A stretch of 64,000 nucleotides of DNA. It comes from Winogradskyella vidalii. GTDB taxonomy: Bacteria > Bacteroidota > Bacteroidia > Flavobacteriales > Flavobacteriaceae. Numbering within the stretch: the first letter of the stretch is position 1; every line of letters starts with the position of its first letter. The notes beneath the pieces were generated by a model. The model had not been told where the DNA came from. It saw nothing but the letters and a program-made list of their open reading frames with translations, and did not search any database. The position numbers and the translations under genes were made by a program. Shown in pieces: positions 37,868-44,165 of this stretch. The stretch covers positions 434,001 to 498,000 of the forward strand of contig NZ_JABFDG010000002.1 in the NCBI RefSeq assembly GCF_013403955.1, in the 5' to 3' direction.

Positions 37868-38311
37868 CTACGAAAGTGGTTTTATCTCTTTATACTTCAC
37901 CACATGAGACAAAACAATCTGCGTTTTAGTTTCCCCATAACTAATTAACTGATCTATAAATATTTCAAGATGCTTTTGATTCTTAAGCACCACTTCCATC
38001 ACAATATTTTCATTCCCTGTAATTCGGTAACAGTTCACCACCTCATCATAGGTTTTTACTTTTTCTAAAAAAGGCTTAAGCATTCCCATAAATGCACGTA
38101 ACGTGATTAAAGCTTTTAACTGGTAACCCGCTTCAAAAGGCGATACAAATGTGGTATAGCCTTGAATAATCTCAGCATCTTCCATTTTTTTTATCCGCTC
38201 TGAAACTGCTGGAGATGATACACCTACACGCCTGCCAATTTCTGCATTAGACATTCTCGCATTTTCTTGAAGACACTTTAAAATCTTCCAGTTTAGATTA
38301 TCAATACTCAT
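37868..38311 (-). CDS. Lrp/AsnC family transcriptional regulator
   Basis: 147 residues. The N-terminal winged helix (LNWKILKCLQENARMSNAEIG, then GVSSPAVSERIKKMEDAEII) is followed by the RAM/ACT-like ligand domain (ALITLRAFMGMLKPFLEKV ... ITGNENIVMEVVLKNQKHLEIFIDQLISYGETKTQIVLS). The typical length is about 150. It is convergent with ypdA and divergent from the helical protein at 38429. The regulated genes and effector amino acid are not visible here. Confidence 0.93.
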   Translation of the reverse strand: MSIDNLNWKILKCLQENARMSNAEIGRRVGVSSPAVSERIKKMEDAEIIQGYTTFVSPFEAGYQLKALITLRAFMGMLKPFLEKVKTYDEVVNCYRITGNENIVMEVVLKNQKHLEIFIDQLISYGETKTQIVLSHVVKYKEIKPLS

Positions 38312-38428
38312 TTAAAGTAATTTAACAAAATTAACACTGTTATTAAAGTAAATATACAAAATCACTTTAAAAACGAAAGATAGTTGTCAGTATTTGTTCT
38401 TAAATTCGTATGTATTGCTATTGAGATT

Positions 38429-38824
38429 ATGAGTTATAACCTACCATCACATTTATCTGATTTGCCTGTTTATCAAAAGGCTATGGATATTATTGCGCTA
38501 TCTCAACGTATTTCTAATTATCTTATTCAAGATTTATCCTATTTAAATACTGATGGCACTGAAGATAAGCACATTTATTTTACAGGCGATATTATTCAGC
38601 AATCCACCAATCTTGCACCACAGATTATTAGTGCTGAACGTGAGAAATGTTCGCAGAAAAAAAGCAAACACTTAGATCGTTTAGATCGTTTAACATCGCG
38701 CTTATATAGTAATTGTAGACGCCTAGAAAAATCGAATAGTAACGGCAGAGATTACCTACCTATTCTTAGAGGTGAACTAAAAAAATTCAGAAAGTTACAA
38801 CGGCATTGGGTGATGACGCTTTAA
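38429..38824 (+). CDS. Conserved-looking helical protein of unknown function
   Basis: 131 residues from the ATG at 38429 (frame open from 38384). The protein is soluble, charged and almost wholly helical: SHLSDLPVYQKAMDIIALSQRISNY, then DIIQQSTNLAPQIISAE and a basic helix LDRLDRLTSRLYSNCRRLEKS. The LPVYQKAMDI start recalls four-helix-bundle (S23/IVP-like) proteins, but I am not sure of the relation. It ends 19 bp from the convergent DEAD-box gene. Confidence 0.6.
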   Translation: MSYNLPSHLSDLPVYQKAMDIIALSQRISNYLIQDLSYLNTDGTEDKHIYFTGDIIQQSTNLAPQIISAEREKCSQKKSKHLDRLDRLTSRLYSNCRRLEKSNSNGRDYLPILRGELKKFRKLQRHWVMTL

Positions 38825-38843
38825 AAGAAAAAATCTTAAGTAT

Positions 38844-39452
38844 TTATTTTACAAGATGTGCATTTGCCATAAATGAATTCTGATAATTCTTAATCTTAGA
38901 ATTCATCTCATCGGCCATAATTATAAATTGGCATCTATCAATACTTTCAGACAATCTTAAAATATGATTGTAAGCATTCTGACGCCCTAAATAATCCGCA
39001 TCTTCAATAGCAAATAGTTGAATTTCGCCTAAATGAATACCGTTTAAAAAATAGAGTTTACTTAATCTTGAAGGCGTTGCAATAACAATATCTTGTCCGT
39101 AATAAACTTCTTCTTTTTGCTTTTCAATATCGTATTCATCATACAAGGCGTAAACTCGTAAATCAGTTGTCTTGGTAAACCTTTCAAATTCAGATTTTAA
39201 CTCTAAAGCTTCCTTTTTATCCTTTACAATAATTAAAGCTCTAGGTGAATCTTCAAAAGCTTCGGCTTTTAGCTTATGAATTGTAGCAATAATAAGTGCG
39301 GTTGTTTTTCCACTAGCTTTTGGCGCAATAATATAAGCATCTGCACCACCTTTTAAAACTGGTAATACTTTCTTTTGAAATGGATTTGAAGTTTTAAACC
39401 CTGCATTTTCTAGGGATTCTTTTAATAAAGGGTGTAGTTTTTTGAAAGACAT
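38844..39452 (-). CDS. Single-domain DEAD-box-like ATPase (RecA1 half only)
   Basis: 202 residues that cover only the first RecA domain of a DEAD-box helicase. It has a Q-motif-like FKTSNPFQKKVLPVL, Walker A APKASGKTT (43-51), TPSRL (motif Ib-like) and IEDAD (149-153) in place of DEAD. Motif III reads ADE rather than SAT, and there is no helicase C-terminal domain. The frame ends cleanly, so it seems a stable short form rather than a broken gene. It lies 58 bp downstream of sigZ on the same strand. Helicase activity alone is doubtful. Confidence 0.75.
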   Translation of the reverse strand: MSFKKLHPLLKESLENAGFKTSNPFQKKVLPVLKGGADAYIIAPKASGKTTALIIATIHKLKAEAFEDSPRALIIVKDKKEALELKSEFERFTKTTDLRVYALYDEYDIEKQKEEVYYGQDIVIATPSRLSKLYFLNGIHLGEIQLFAIEDADYLGRQNAYNHILRLSESIDRCQFIIMADEMNSKIKNYQNSFMANAHLVK

Positions 39453-39510
39453 CTGTATAATTAAGAAAATAGCTTGTTAGTAATTCAGCTATTAATTTTC
39501 AAAGGTACAA

Positions 39511-40050
39511 TTAATGACAAACTTTACAGTCTGCTTTGTCTTGTATTTCTCCAACTAAGTGTCCTTCTTCGTTCATTTTAAAGCCACAACAATCCATAAA
39601 TCCCTGAGCAATCTGCTTTCTTGCACGTTGAATTTGTGATTTTACAGTTGGTAATGACAAGTCTAATTGATTGGCGACCTCTTGTTGTTTTAAGCCTTTT
39701 ATATCTGATAAAAATAAAGGGTCTCTATATTTTTTAGGTAAGTTTTTTATTATACCTCTTAAGCAATCTTGTTCCGAATGTTCCATGGGTTCCGGATCAG
39801 CCTCTATGTCAATTTGTTCAACTGGTAATTCTTGTTTATTTGTTCTAAAATAATCTAGAACGCTATATCGTGCTACAGAAAACAGCCAAGATTTCAGCTT
39901 GTCTTCATCTTTTAGTGTTTGTAATTTGGTATGCACTTTTATAAAGGTGTCCTGTAGAATATCTTCAGCCACAGCAACATCTTTCACTTTACTCAAAATA
40001 AAGCGTCTTAAATCATCTGCATAAGTGTCCCAAACATTTTTTGTAGTCAT
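39511..40050 (-). CDS. sigZ: RNA polymerase sigma factor SigZ (ECF type) with Cys-rich tail
   Basis: 179 residues. Sigma region 2 (about 8-72: AEDILQDTFIKVHTKL ... KSWLFSVARYSVLDYFR) and region 4 (about 95-148: LPKKYRDPLFLSDIKGLKQQEVANQL, then LSLPTVKSQIQRARKQI) are complete. Unusual for ECF factors, a 30-residue tail holds C154-C155 and C175-xx-C178-H179, a likely metal or thiol site. No anti-sigma gene is adjacent. Instead a 33-residue peptide with 11 cysteines precedes it. The pair suggests metal- or redox-responsive expression. Confidence 0.9.
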   Translation of the reverse strand: MTTKNVWDTYADDLRRFILSKVKDVAVAEDILQDTFIKVHTKLQTLKDEDKLKSWLFSVARYSVLDYFRTNKQELPVEQIDIEADPEPMEHSEQDCLRGIIKNLPKKYRDPLFLSDIKGLKQQEVANQLDLSLPTVKSQIQRARKQIAQGFMDCCGFKMNEEGHLVGEIQDKADCKVCH

Positions 40051-40110
40051 TCTTTAAAATTAATTAAAATCAGTTCGAATACCAAGTTTAGTATCCGAAC
40101 TGACTATAAT

Positions 40111-40212
40111 TTAACAATTGCAGTTTACACATGTACAATTTTCACAAGTACAATTACTACAACCTCCTTTTGCGCAACCTTCACAGTTACAAGTACAATC
40201 TATATTTTTCAT
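40111..40212 (-). CDS. Metallothionein-like Cys-rich mini-protein
   Basis: A 33-residue open frame, ATG at 40212 to TAA at 40111. Eleven of the residues are Cys (positions 6, 8, 10, 13, 18, 21, 23, 26, 28, 31, 33), in CxC and CxxC spacing with Asn, Thr, Glu and Gly between and no aromatic residue. This composition fits a metal-binding peptide. It lies 60 bp upstream of sigZ on the same strand and just downstream of an ECF-like promoter, so it and sigZ probably form one unit. I know of no exact named family. Confidence 0.72.
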   Translation of the reverse strand: MKNIDCTCNCEGCAKGGCSNCTCENCTCVNCNC

Positions 40213-40234
40213 GATATTAAGTTTTATTGTTCAC

Positions 40235-40266
40235 CTAATAGACGAAAGAATTGCTGAAAAGATGCA
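40235..40266 (-). promoter_or_regulatory. ECF-type promoter candidate before the Cys-rich peptide and sigZ
   Basis: On the minus strand TGCATC (40266-40261) and CGTCTATTAG (40244-40235) are 16 nt apart. CGTC-type -10 elements with 16-17 nt spacing are typical for ECF sigma factors, and this is unlike the TAnnTTTG housekeeping box. The position suggests autoregulation by SigZ; this is inference. Confidence 0.45.
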
Positions 40267-40277
40267 AAAAAGATGAC

Positions 40278-40660
40278 TTATTTTTTATTGAATGTATCAT
40301 CACACCATTTTTCAGGGTTTTGATGAATATCATTTATGATGTTTACATACGTTTTTCATCTTTAATAATATGGTCGTGAAACGAACTTTTCCGTTTAAAA
40401 GCTATAAAACCAGCGTCGTGGATTAATTTTGAAGAAGTGTTTTTGAAAGCTCCTACTAATCCCGATAAAGATTTAATTTTTACATTTTCATCAAAAACTA
40501 AACTGCGATTAATTTCTAAAACCATAAGAACATGATTTGGCATTACAATTTTTGCATGAATAACAACATATGCATATTGATATTGCCACCAATTTAATTG
40601 CGCATATGCAATTTGCCCATATGGATTTAATTACATGATTTATTGGTATTATATAATTAA
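40278..40660 (-). pseudogene. Decayed REP-associated tyrosine transposase (Y1/IS200-like)
   Basis: Three fragments in order on the minus strand recall a RAYT transposase. First, LNPYGQIAYAQLNWWQYQYA runs into AKIVMPNHVLMVLEI, where MPNHVH is normally the catalytic HUH-like site and the last His is lost. Then KSLSGLVGAFKNTSSKLIH and SFHDHIIKDEKRM run to a stop at 40343. A shift of frame then gives NIINDIHQNPEKWCDDTFNK, the usual family C-terminus, ending at 40278. The N-terminal third is unrecognisable. A perfect palindrome of REP type lies at 40705-40724. Confidence 0.78.
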
Positions 40661-40704
40661 TGACATTTCAATTGGATTCTGATTTCTATTTCTGCTGTGC
40701 GAAC

Positions 40705-40724
40705 GGACAAGTCGCGACTTGTCC
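40705..40724. repeat. 20-nt perfect palindrome, REP-like
   Basis: GGACAAGTCGCGACTTGTCC is fully self-complementary. It abuts the icmF stop codon (40725-40727) and lies about 45 bp beyond the transposase remnant, so it may be that transposase's own REP target. No other copy is present in this window. Confidence 0.8.
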
Positions 40725-43700
40725 CTACATATTCCGGCGATACTGCCCTCCGACCTCGAATAATGCTGATGTGATTTGCCCCAATGAACAAACCTTACAC
40801 ACTTCCATTAATGCTTCAAAAATATTTTCATTATTGATGGCTTTGCTTTGTAAATCTTTTAATAATTCTTCTGAATTATGGGCTTCATGCAGATTTTCTA
40901 ATGTTTTTATCTGAAATTGCTTCTCCTCCTCCGTTGCTCTAATCACTTCCGCTGGCTGAACTGTTGGTGACCCCTTACTACTCAAAAAGGTATTCACGCC
41001 AATGATGGGAAATTTCCCGTTATGCTTCAACGTTTCATAATATAAGCTTTCTTCTTGAATCTTACTACGCTGATACATGGTTTCCATCGCGCCAAGCACA
41101 CCACCTCTTTCAGTAATACGATCAAACTCTAATAAAACAGCCTCTTCAACTAAATCCGTTAATTCTTCAATAATAAAAGAGCCTTGAATTGGGTTTTCGT
41201 TCTTCGCTAACCCTAACTCCTTATTAATAATCAATTGAATAGCCATAGCTCTACGAACTGATTCCTCTGTTGGGGTGGTAATAGCCTCATCATAAGCATT
41301 AGTATGCAATGAGTTACAATTGTCATAAATGGCATACAAGGCCTGAAGTGTGGTTCTGATATCATTAAAATCAATTTCCTGAGCATGTAAACTACGCCCT
41401 GAGGTTTGAATATGATATTTCAACATTTGTGCTCTTGGATTGGCCCCGTATTTATGCTTCATGGCTTTCGCCCAAATTTTTCTTGCTACACGACCAATAA
41501 CCGCATATTCTGGGTCGATTCCGTTTGAAAAGAAAAATGATAAGTTTGGCCCAAATTTATTGATGTCCATCCCTCTACTTAAGTAATACTCTACATACGT
41601 AAATCCGTTAGATAAGGTTAGGGCGAGTTGTGTAATAGGATTAGCACCTGCTTCTGCGATATGATAACCAGAAATAGAAACCGAATAAAAATTCCGAACA
41701 TTATTATCTATAAAATATTCTTGAACATCGCCCATTAAACGCAATGCAAATTCCGTAGAGAAAATACAGGTATTTTGGGCTTGATCTTCTTTTAAAATAT
41801 CAGCCTGAACCGTTCCTCTCACCTGAGCAATAGTATTCTTTTTAATCTCTGCATAGACCTCAGCAGGCAAAACTTGATCCCCTGTAACGCCTAAGAGCAT
41901 TAAACCTAAACCATTATTACCTTCAGGAAGTTTACCATTGTATTGGGGACGCTCCTTCCCTTTATAAATAGTCTTAATTTTAGTTTCAACCTCTTTTTCT
42001 AGACCATTTTCTTTAATATAGAATTCACATTGCTGATCAATAGCAGCATTCATAAAAAAGCCAAGCAACATGGGTGCTGGCCCATTAATGGTCATACTCA
42101 CTGAAGTCATCACATTTGCTAAATCGAAACCAGAATATAATTTTTTAGCATCGTCTAAACAGCAAATTGAAACTCCTGCATTTCCGATTTTTCCGTAAAT
42201 GTCTGGTCGTAAATCGGGATCACTTCCGTAGAGTGTAACACTATCAAAGGCTGTAGATAAACGTTTGGCAGGTAAGCCTGCACTGACATAATGAAAACGT
42301 CTGTTGGTTCGCTCTGGTCCGCCTTCGCCTGCAAACATTCTTGCGGGGTCTTCACCTGTTCTTTTAAAAGGGTACAAACCGGCTGTATACGGAAATTCTC
42401 CAGGTACATTTTCTTGTAAACACCATCTTAAAATATCGCCCCATGCTTGATATTTGGGTAAGGCGACTTTTGGTATTTGTGTATGCGAAAGCGATTCTGT
42501 TTGAGTTTCAATTTTAATTTCTTTATCTCTAACTTTAAAAGAATATATAGGATCCTTATAACGGTTTACTTTTTGGTCCCAACCTGTAATCACTTCCCAA
42601 TTGTAGGGATCTAAATTAAGTTTTACACGATCAAATTCTTTTATTAAAAGTCCTAAAAATTCTTCTGAACTTTCATCTTCAACTTGACTGAGAATATCCT
42701 CATCATTTAATCCTAATTTTCCGATGAAAGACCTTTCGACAGCGCTTAAGGTTACATTTCCGACAGAACAAATGGTTTTATAAATACCATATAATTTCTG
42801 CGCGACTTCAACTTGTTCATCGGCCGTTTTATCGTAGGCTCTATTATTCTCTGCTATTTCAGACAAATAACGTGTTCGTGATGGTGGAATAACAAAAATC
42901 TTCTCACTCATTTCTTTAGAGATCTCAAACGTAGATTTTAAAACAGAATCTGCTTTTTCAACTAATTTATCCATAACCGCTTTATACAGCGTATTCATTC
43001 CTGGGTCATTAAATTGAGAGGCAATGGTTCCGTAAACTGGTAAGTCATCTTGTGGAATATCCCAAAGATTATTGTTACGCATGTATTGTTTTTTTACATC
43101 ACGCAAGGCATCTAAAGCGCCACGCTTATCAAATTTATTGATGGCCACTAAATCGGCAAAATCGAGCATATCAATTTTTTCGAGTTGTGTAGCTGCACCA
43201 AATTCTGGCGTCATTACATACAGTGACACATCAGAATGCTCTATAATTTCGGTATCTGATTGACCAATTCCAGAGGTCTCCAAAATAATTAAGTCGTATT
43301 CGGCAGCTTTTAAAACTTCAACCGCTTCGTTAACATACTTAGACAAAGCCAAATTAGATTGACGTGTTGCTAAACTGCGCATATAAACACGCGGTGAATT
43401 AATAGCATTCATACGGATACGATCACCTAAAAGCGCACCACCTGTTTTTCGTTTAGATGGATCTACAGAAACAATACCAATTGTTTTTTCAGGAAAATCA
43501 ATTAAGAAACGACGTACTAATTCATCAACTAATGAAGACTTTCCTGCCCCACCAGTTCCCGTAATACCAAGAACGGGAGTTTTTGAATTCTTGTTTTTTT
43601 CATGAATAGCAGCTAAAGCATCTTTTGCAACTTCAGGAAAATTTTCTGAAGAAGAAATTAATCTTGCAATAGATTTTGAGTCTTTTTTATGAAGCACTTT

Positions 43701-44165
43701 TACTTCATCATTGAGATTATCACCAATAGCATAATCCGATTGCTCTACTAAGTCATTAATCATTCCCTGTAAACCAAGACCTCTTCCATCATCTGGCGAA
43801 TAGATTCTGGTAACCCCATAGTCCATTAATTCCTTAATTTCCTCAGGAAGAATCACGCCGCCGCCGCCGCCAAAAATTTTAATATGGCCTGCGCCTTTTT
43901 CCTGCAGCAAATCATACATATATTTAAAATACTCGTTATGTCCACCTTGGTAAGAGGTCAAAGCAATAGCATTAGCATCTTCTTGTATGGCTGTATTTAC
44001 GACCTCCTCTACGCTTCTATCGTGACCTAAATGAATCACTTCGACTCCTGTAGATTGAATAATACGCCGCATGATATTTATTGAAGCATCATGCCCATCA
44101 AAAAGTGATGCAGCGGTAACTATACGTACTTTATATTTTGGTTTATATGGTGTAACTTGTTCCAT
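40725..44165 (-). CDS. icmF: Fused isobutyryl-CoA mutase (IcmF)
   Basis: 1146 residues joining three parts. The N-terminal B12-binding domain (about 12-145) has the base-off motif in [11 protein letters not shown] (H25) and [10 protein letters not shown]. The MeaB-like G-protein chaperone domain (about 190-430) has Walker [10 protein letters not shown] (203-211), [15 protein letters not shown] and NKFDKRGA. The mutase large-subunit domain (about 570-1146) has [20 protein letters not shown] and [15 protein letters not shown]-like segments. This order is diagnostic of IcmF, which interconverts isobutyryl- and butyryl-CoA (some also pivalyl/isovaleryl-CoA) with adenosylcobalamin. It is a single gene next to purU (divergent). 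Confidence 0.93.

Follow-up and report, generated by a model that had tools for sequence, protein, structure and literature searches.

The window analysed here, a stretch of 64,000 nucleotides from Winogradskyella vidalii, carries on its minus strand a promoter, a gene for a 33-residue Cys-rich peptide, a hairpin and a gene for a SigZ-type ECF sigma factor, in that order. We hold with moderate confidence that these parts form a self-contained, autoregulated metal-response operon, in which a CorE-like sigma factor acts without an anti-sigma factor and a metallothionein-like buffer is the first product.

The sequence-only reading of this DNA had proposed a Cys-rich peptide of 33 residues just upstream of sigZ, and the gene is indeed found there, at 40111-40212 on the minus strand and 60 nt upstream of the sigma factor gene. 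The peptide (MKNIDCTCNCEGCAKGGCSNCTCENCTCVNCNC) contains 11 cysteines and, in the window's copy, no histidine. Like the metallothioneins, it is small and Cys-dense with CxC/CxxC arrays, and such spacing is typical of metal-thiolate proteins. Homology to a described metallothionein family was not found in Pfam, NCBIfam or the PDB: the peptide matched no Pfam or NCBIfam family at E<=10 and no PDB chain, in searches whose HMMER filters may hide low-complexity matches. The SmtA/BmtA-type metallothioneins are also small and rich in Cys with CxC/CxxC arrays; the window peptide differs from them in being very short and in its presumed control by a sigma factor instead of an ArsR/SmtB-type repressor. 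The gene bmtA is named in one source (PMC10141476). We regard the peptide as a putative metallothionein-like metal buffer, with metal binding suggested by its Cys array.

Is the peptide a regular companion of the sigma factor? The earlier reading would have been contradicted if close relatives had sigZ without the peptide beside it, and the opposite was found. A first sample comprised the source genome and 59 relatives. The sigma factor was present at E<=1e-30 in 19 of these 60 genomes (the source and 18 others), all from one genus and making up 19 of its 37 genomes, and the peptide accompanies it at all 19 loci, window included. An even sample of 397 family genomes, with at most eight candidates scored per genome, gave matches to the peptide profile in 65 and to the sigma profile in 107; every one of the 52 sigmas at E<1e-45, window included, is preceded on its own strand by the peptide, at a distance of 3-249 nt. 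Among 395 genomes sampled across the class, the peptide occurs in four, all in the same family. These samples overlap, and related genomes and loci within a genus are not independent.

Detailed comparison used 65 loci, namely the window and those 64, of 80 named loci returned by a scan of a genome collection, whose sigma factor is at least 58% identical over nearly its full length; the 16 excluded loci carry more distant sigmas or, in L123, a gene cut by the contig end. The set spans Winogradskyella, Mesoflavibacter, Polaribacter, Tenacibaculum, Lutibacter, Bizionia, Tamlana, Lacinutrix and unnamed bins. All 65 loci keep the array CxCxCxxCxxxxCxxCxCxxCxCxxCxC, and at every one of the 11 Cys positions both TGT and TGC occur and never a non-Cys codon. 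The peptide cores are otherwise variable, with 64 distinct sequences, and some non-Cys residues are also conserved. Comparable Cys-rich mini-ORFs number zero in 791 strand-kb of flanking DNA from the relatives, a background drawn from Flavobacteriaceae only.

The peptide is also found apart from the sigma factor. Of the 65 peptide-bearing family genomes, 13 have no sigma match at E<=1e-25, which suggests that the peptide has a function of its own. Three of these orphan peptides (L248, L256, L257) adjoin genes that commonly surround the pair, AsnC-type ones among them, and a CDF-like gene is found one gene away from another (L251). Some orphans are decayed or divergent: L257 has lost Cys residues, no intact Cys ORF is among those listed for L260, and some others are divergent or near contig ends. 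In genome G663, stops in the sigma reading accompany a shortened peptide, which looks like joint decay of the two genes.

The promoter proposed at the outset, with a CGTC-type -10 box, is likewise seen in the window. It occupies 40236-40267 on the minus strand as an ECF-type TTGCATCTTTT-N12-CGTCTATTA, with the -10-like element CGTCTATTA at 40236-40244 and TGCATCTTTT at 40257-40266, and is a putative site of SigZ autoregulation. Across relatives, 64 of the 65 loci have the form TGCATCTTTTT-N12-GTCTAYTA-nn-TGAAC, with no more than 3 mismatches of 24, some 52-55 nt ahead of the peptide start. At the remaining locus, L070, the contig breaks, and a matching site lies at the end of a different contig in that assembly. 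As a background, the 160 nt in front of each of 417 ORFs longer than 150 aa in the relatives contain no site with 5 or fewer mismatches of 24, the best being one with 6. Considering the strict 52/52 pairing, the empty mini-ORF background, the TGT/TGC variation and the absence of the promoter from the 417-ORF background, the pair is not a product of chance.

The distribution of the site also bears on its regulation. The only mismatch-free site of the source genome is the operon's own. Sites with at most one mismatch occur in all 19 sigma-bearing genomes of the genus, two of which have a pair of them; the four sigma-less genomes searched (of 18) contain no such site, and one of these four has a single match with 3 mismatches. 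This is the pattern that an autoregulated, dedicated sigma factor predicts, and this comparative evidence supports the view that SigZ autoregulates through this promoter.

Between the peptide stop and the sigma start, a hairpin at about 40062-40111 on the minus strand is followed by a T-rich stretch, and may be a leaky terminator. The segment 40051-40125 folds at -25.1 kcal/mol with a z of -7.4 against shuffled controls, which were run for the window only. Folds stronger than -10 kcal/mol (MFE, here without shuffle control) occur in the peptide-sigma gap of 56 of the 65 loci, with sequences that vary by group; of the other nine, five have a gap no longer than 10 nt and four fold weakly. In a second SigZ group, several hairpins have T runs behind them and look, by eye, like intrinsic terminators. 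Rfam has no match within 38000-41500. The hairpin would cause partial termination, such that the peptide is made in excess over the sigma factor. Alternatively, a Cys-rich short ORF, a strong hairpin and a regulator gene in that order could be an attenuator, in which ribosomes stalled at the Cys codons by low charged tRNA-Cys alter the hairpin and open read-through into sigZ. Cys-rich attenuators are known in mycobacteria. We consider this very unlikely, given that conservation extends to the exact spacing of the cysteines and to some non-Cys residues, that the peptide persists in the 13 genomes without a sigma match, and that nine loci lack a strong hairpin. Moreover, some distant SigZ loci have their Cys mini-protein downstream of the sigma factor, a position from which it cannot attenuate sigma expression.

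The sigma factor itself (39511-40050, minus strand, 179 aa) consists of regions 2 and 4 followed by a Cys-containing tail. It scores 169.2 bits against the SigZ model TIGR02959, barely over the cut-off of 168.65, and 181.2 against PRK09637, under the cut-off of 212; the likeness to this family extends over nearly the full length. The tail (39511-39591) ends in DCCGFKMNEEGHLVGEIQDKADCKVCH and has the pattern CC-x19-CxxC, with four cysteines (C154, C155, C175, C178) that are invariant in all 65 loci and form a putative metal site. The AlphaFold model is usable for the core only, with low confidence in the tail, and no PDB sequence match extends past residue 152, which leaves the tail without a solved sequence relative. 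From its sequence, we suggest that the tail senses metal and thereby switches on SigZ.

A precedent for such a switch exists in Myxococcus xanthus, where the ECF sigmas CorE and CorE2 are activated by metal through a C-terminal Cys domain and have no anti-sigma factor, with CorE2 answering Cd and Zn (PMC8999054, PMC3107203). The window sigma resembles these proteins (former ECF44, now partly ECF238), as described in the passages available, in its Cys-rich extension after region 4, present in 65/65 loci, in its association with metal genes, and in the lack of a visible linked anti-sigma factor. Pfam and NCBIfam scans found no anti-sigma factor among five neighbouring ORFs, in agreement with the earlier reading, and recurrent neighbour clusters in relatives were judged by eye. 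Unlike the window sigma with its CC-x19-CxxC tail, CorE has a 38-residue domain with six Cys, and those passages show no metallothionein paired with it. The CxC of the CorE linker is absent as well (0/65 loci, residues 60-110), and we therefore suppose that the window SigZ works like CorE without filing it as a member of that group. A list of CorE-type sigmas from 2011 contains 21 from four phyla, with Bacteroidetes absent (PMC3107203), and ECF287 and ECF288 have been named as likely CorE-like by their Cys content (PMC8999054). The comparison differs for CnrH, an ECF sigma for Co/Ni resistance that works with an anti-sigma, CnrY (structure 4cxf shows the two together); no counterpart of CnrY was seen among the window's scanned neighbours.

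The surroundings of the pair recur in relatives. In the window it is flanked by a 202-aa protein matching a DEAD helicase N-domain (38844-39452) and by a fused isobutyryl-CoA mutase IcmF (40725-44165), and IcmF-, helicase- and AsnC-type genes are recurrent neighbours elsewhere. Short ORFs at 40343-40592 (MPNHV..., ..AFKRKSSFHDHII), between the IcmF gene and the promoter, match no Pfam or NCBIfam profile, but bear a resemblance to a broken REP-associated transposase. An OsmC gene lies near 12 of the 65 loci and is taken as a syntenic neighbour, since the promoter separates it from the peptide in the coordinates of L060.

What else does the promoter drive? A scan of 33 other genomes with a shorter pattern (at most 2 mismatches of 18) gave 101 matches, against 62 for the reversed pattern used as control. 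The operon's own sites account for 33 of the matches. The other 68 are secondary and were all read, 21 first picked by eye and then the remaining 47 exhaustively. The number of secondary sites is in effect no higher than the 62 control matches, and 49 of the 68 precede no gene of the kinds named below, most having no sizeable ORF starting behind them; the case for a regulon thus rests on gene identity and position. At ten secondary sites a metal exporter gene starts 39-62 nt further on: a CDF gene in seven cases (L169, L170, L171, L173, L174, L177, L183), a P-type ATPase in two (L172, L182) and a CusA/CzcA pump in one (L176). Seven more precede DUF3703 genes (L187, L188, L384, L396, L409, L415, L419) and two precede TonB receptor genes named by eye (L171, L181). 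Profiles confirmed two of the CDFs, one Cd-family P-type ATPase, the CusA/CzcA pump and DUF3703, and the remaining exporters were named by likeness. Exporter-linked promoters occur in some Polaribacter and Tenacibaculum genomes and DUF3703 in several genera. In addition, 18 of the 65 loci have DUF3703 as the gene directly upstream of the pair, and nine of these 18 have a site with at most 5 mismatches of 24. The TonB receptor-like genes of L171 and L181 are possibly metal-linked outer-membrane receptors; each has its own SigZ-type site, and the one in L171 adjoins the CDF gene.

A follow-up in 80 genomes gave a weaker result. It found that CDF at 49% identity or more in five, four of which carry the sigma factor. 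Among these four, one has a clear site (4 mismatches), two have sites with 9-10 mismatches that by eye keep only TGCATC, and one has none; the sigma-less genome with the same CDF has no site. The source genome's single CDF gene also has no SigZ site, which rules it out as a regulon member there. The source genome has six further matches with 3 mismatches of 20, where the reversed control has two; one of the six shows 7 mismatches of 24 when re-scored on the longer pattern. A wider regulon in the source genome was rejected, the operon's own promoter being the only clear target.

These targets are relevant to the nature of the signal. Thiol, disulfide or electrophile stress might act instead of metal, with oxidation of the tail cysteines altering the sigma factor and the peptide serving as a sacrificial thiol pool. 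The Cys-rich peptide and tail would suit this, as would the small CC-containing, thioredoxin-like proteins (named by eye) after some distant SigZ genes and the OsmC genes mentioned above. However, those promoter targets and neighbours to which a function could be assigned are mostly metal or metalloid detoxification genes, and the CxC/CxxC spacing is of the metal-thiolate type; we judge stress of this kind an unlikely signal.

How would a metal-response operon of this design operate? A thiophilic metal, most likely Zn- or Cd-like, would load the CC...CxxC tail of SigZ and render the sigma factor active. Zn or Cd is favoured because of the exporter families found in relatives. Active SigZ would then recognise TGCATCTTTTT-N12-GTCTAYTA, and the 33-aa peptide would be transcribed in large amounts. 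If the hairpin behind the peptide passes only part of this transcription into sigZ, the buffer would come to outnumber the sensor. The mini-metallothionein would take up the metal and SigZ would turn off again. In some relatives the same promoter would also drive metal exporters (CDF, P-type ATPase, CzcA). The sequence-only reading had already sketched a metal-buffer system of this type; its autoregulation gains support from the comparative distribution of sites, its lack of an anti-sigma from the scanned neighbours, and its metal role from the exporters behind the promoter in relatives. The further part of that sketch, that peptide and sigma tail compete for metal, may fairly be inferred.

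The peptide-sigZ pair belongs to a wider SigZ pattern, of which it is one form. The 397-genome family sample gave 116 sigma places, all of which were examined: 52 close ones and 64 others. Another Cys mini-protein accompanies 24 of these 64; in 21 cases it has 36-41 aa with about 14 Cys and follows a promoter resembling TGTATCyTTTTT-N-GTCTmC, and in three (L286, L338, L372) it is unlike that form. Mini-proteins occur within about 500 nt of 24 of the 41 sigmas with CC plus another Cys in the tail, versus none of the 23 without such a tail (Fisher p about 1e-6, calculated on the first 63 places and uncorrected for relatedness). Of these 23, 15 sit before a PhzF-like gene recognised by motif match only (L334, L336, L340, L342, L343, L346, L349, L354, L355, L359, L361, L363, L364, L366, L367).

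The confinement of mini-proteins to sigmas with a CC+C tail, along with the strict pairing in the close group, would be expected if the peptide were a soluble anti-sigma factor, its apo-form binding the SigZ tail (or bridging to it via a shared metal) until displaced by excess metal. Yet the peptide alignment has no conserved hydrophobic residues, the mini-proteins are of several dissimilar sequences and lie on either side of the sigma gene, and 17 of the 41 CC+C-tail sigmas outside the close group have no mini-protein within about 500 nt. We think this role quite improbable, and retain the metal buffer as the preferred function of the peptide.

Other distant SigZ genes adjoin genes for arsenite methyltransferase, ArsI/CadI-like or DUF2703-like proteins, and in several of these loci a TGCGTCTTTTT-type site lies between the sigma factor and such a neighbour. 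The neighbour in L284 was confirmed by profile, that in L287 is a weak match under the cut-off, and the rest were named by likeness. Arsenite methyltransferase-like genes were noted downstream of SigZ in L289, L290, L284, L331, L339 and L345, which are possibly an arsenic-responsive branch. In a phylum-wide sample, SigZ is present at E<=1e-25 in 83 of 335 genomes, with 12 over the model cut-off. Among the best 30 loci of that sample, 11 have a mini-protein within 500 nt, five of these being the 33-aa form (window included), against zero in the 791 strand-kb background. Among the other loci, profile-confirmed neighbours are arsM (L290), ArsI/CadI (L293), ACR3 (L298) and, nearby, MerTP (L297); those in L289 and L294-L296 look similar by eye, and several loci have no such neighbour.

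Perhaps those SigZ-type ECFs of Bacteroidota whose tail is CC+C form a phylum-wide family of direct, one-protein sensors of metals and metalloids, sorted by their tails into those for Zn/Cd exporters, arsenic methylation and mercury. Many would be accompanied by a replaceable, unrelated Cys mini-protein that stores metal and strips it from the sigma tail, as a chemical anti-sigma, and sigmas without CC would have moved to other targets such as PhzF-type enzymes. We offer this generalisation tentatively, as a possibility that is doubtful at present.

SigZ is a named family (TIGR02959/PRK09637) for which neither a function nor a Cys-peptide partner was found in model names or the literature searched, and a SigZ-metallothionein pair was not found described in the full-text literature searched, most subscription papers being outside its scope. 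The data offer SigZ a testable role, a metal response through its own tail, together with a promoter sequence, candidate targets and a partner. The Cys mini-proteins are unannotated and are missed by current family models. The tails with CC versus those without form a natural contrast set for studying possible metal sensing by a sigma factor that has no anti-sigma.

Further afield, a SigZ relative in Cytophagales (L122) has a TGCATC...CGTCT site that begins 48 nt ahead of the match and, 57 nt downstream, a Cys-rich ORF of 19 aa. SigZ-like genes also occur on 180 plasmid records, many of them enteric, including 88 from Salmonella, 27 from Escherichia and 23 from Klebsiella. Neighbourhoods were read for five of the 180 records. 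The annotated sigZ genes on Priestia and Vibrio plasmids have no metal gene among their annotated neighbours. On an Arenibacter plasmid the SigZ-like gene is beside thioredoxin and permease genes, on a Hymenobacter plasmid it is 2 kb from arsenic genes, and on a Sulfuricella plasmid it lies inside an arsenic operon.
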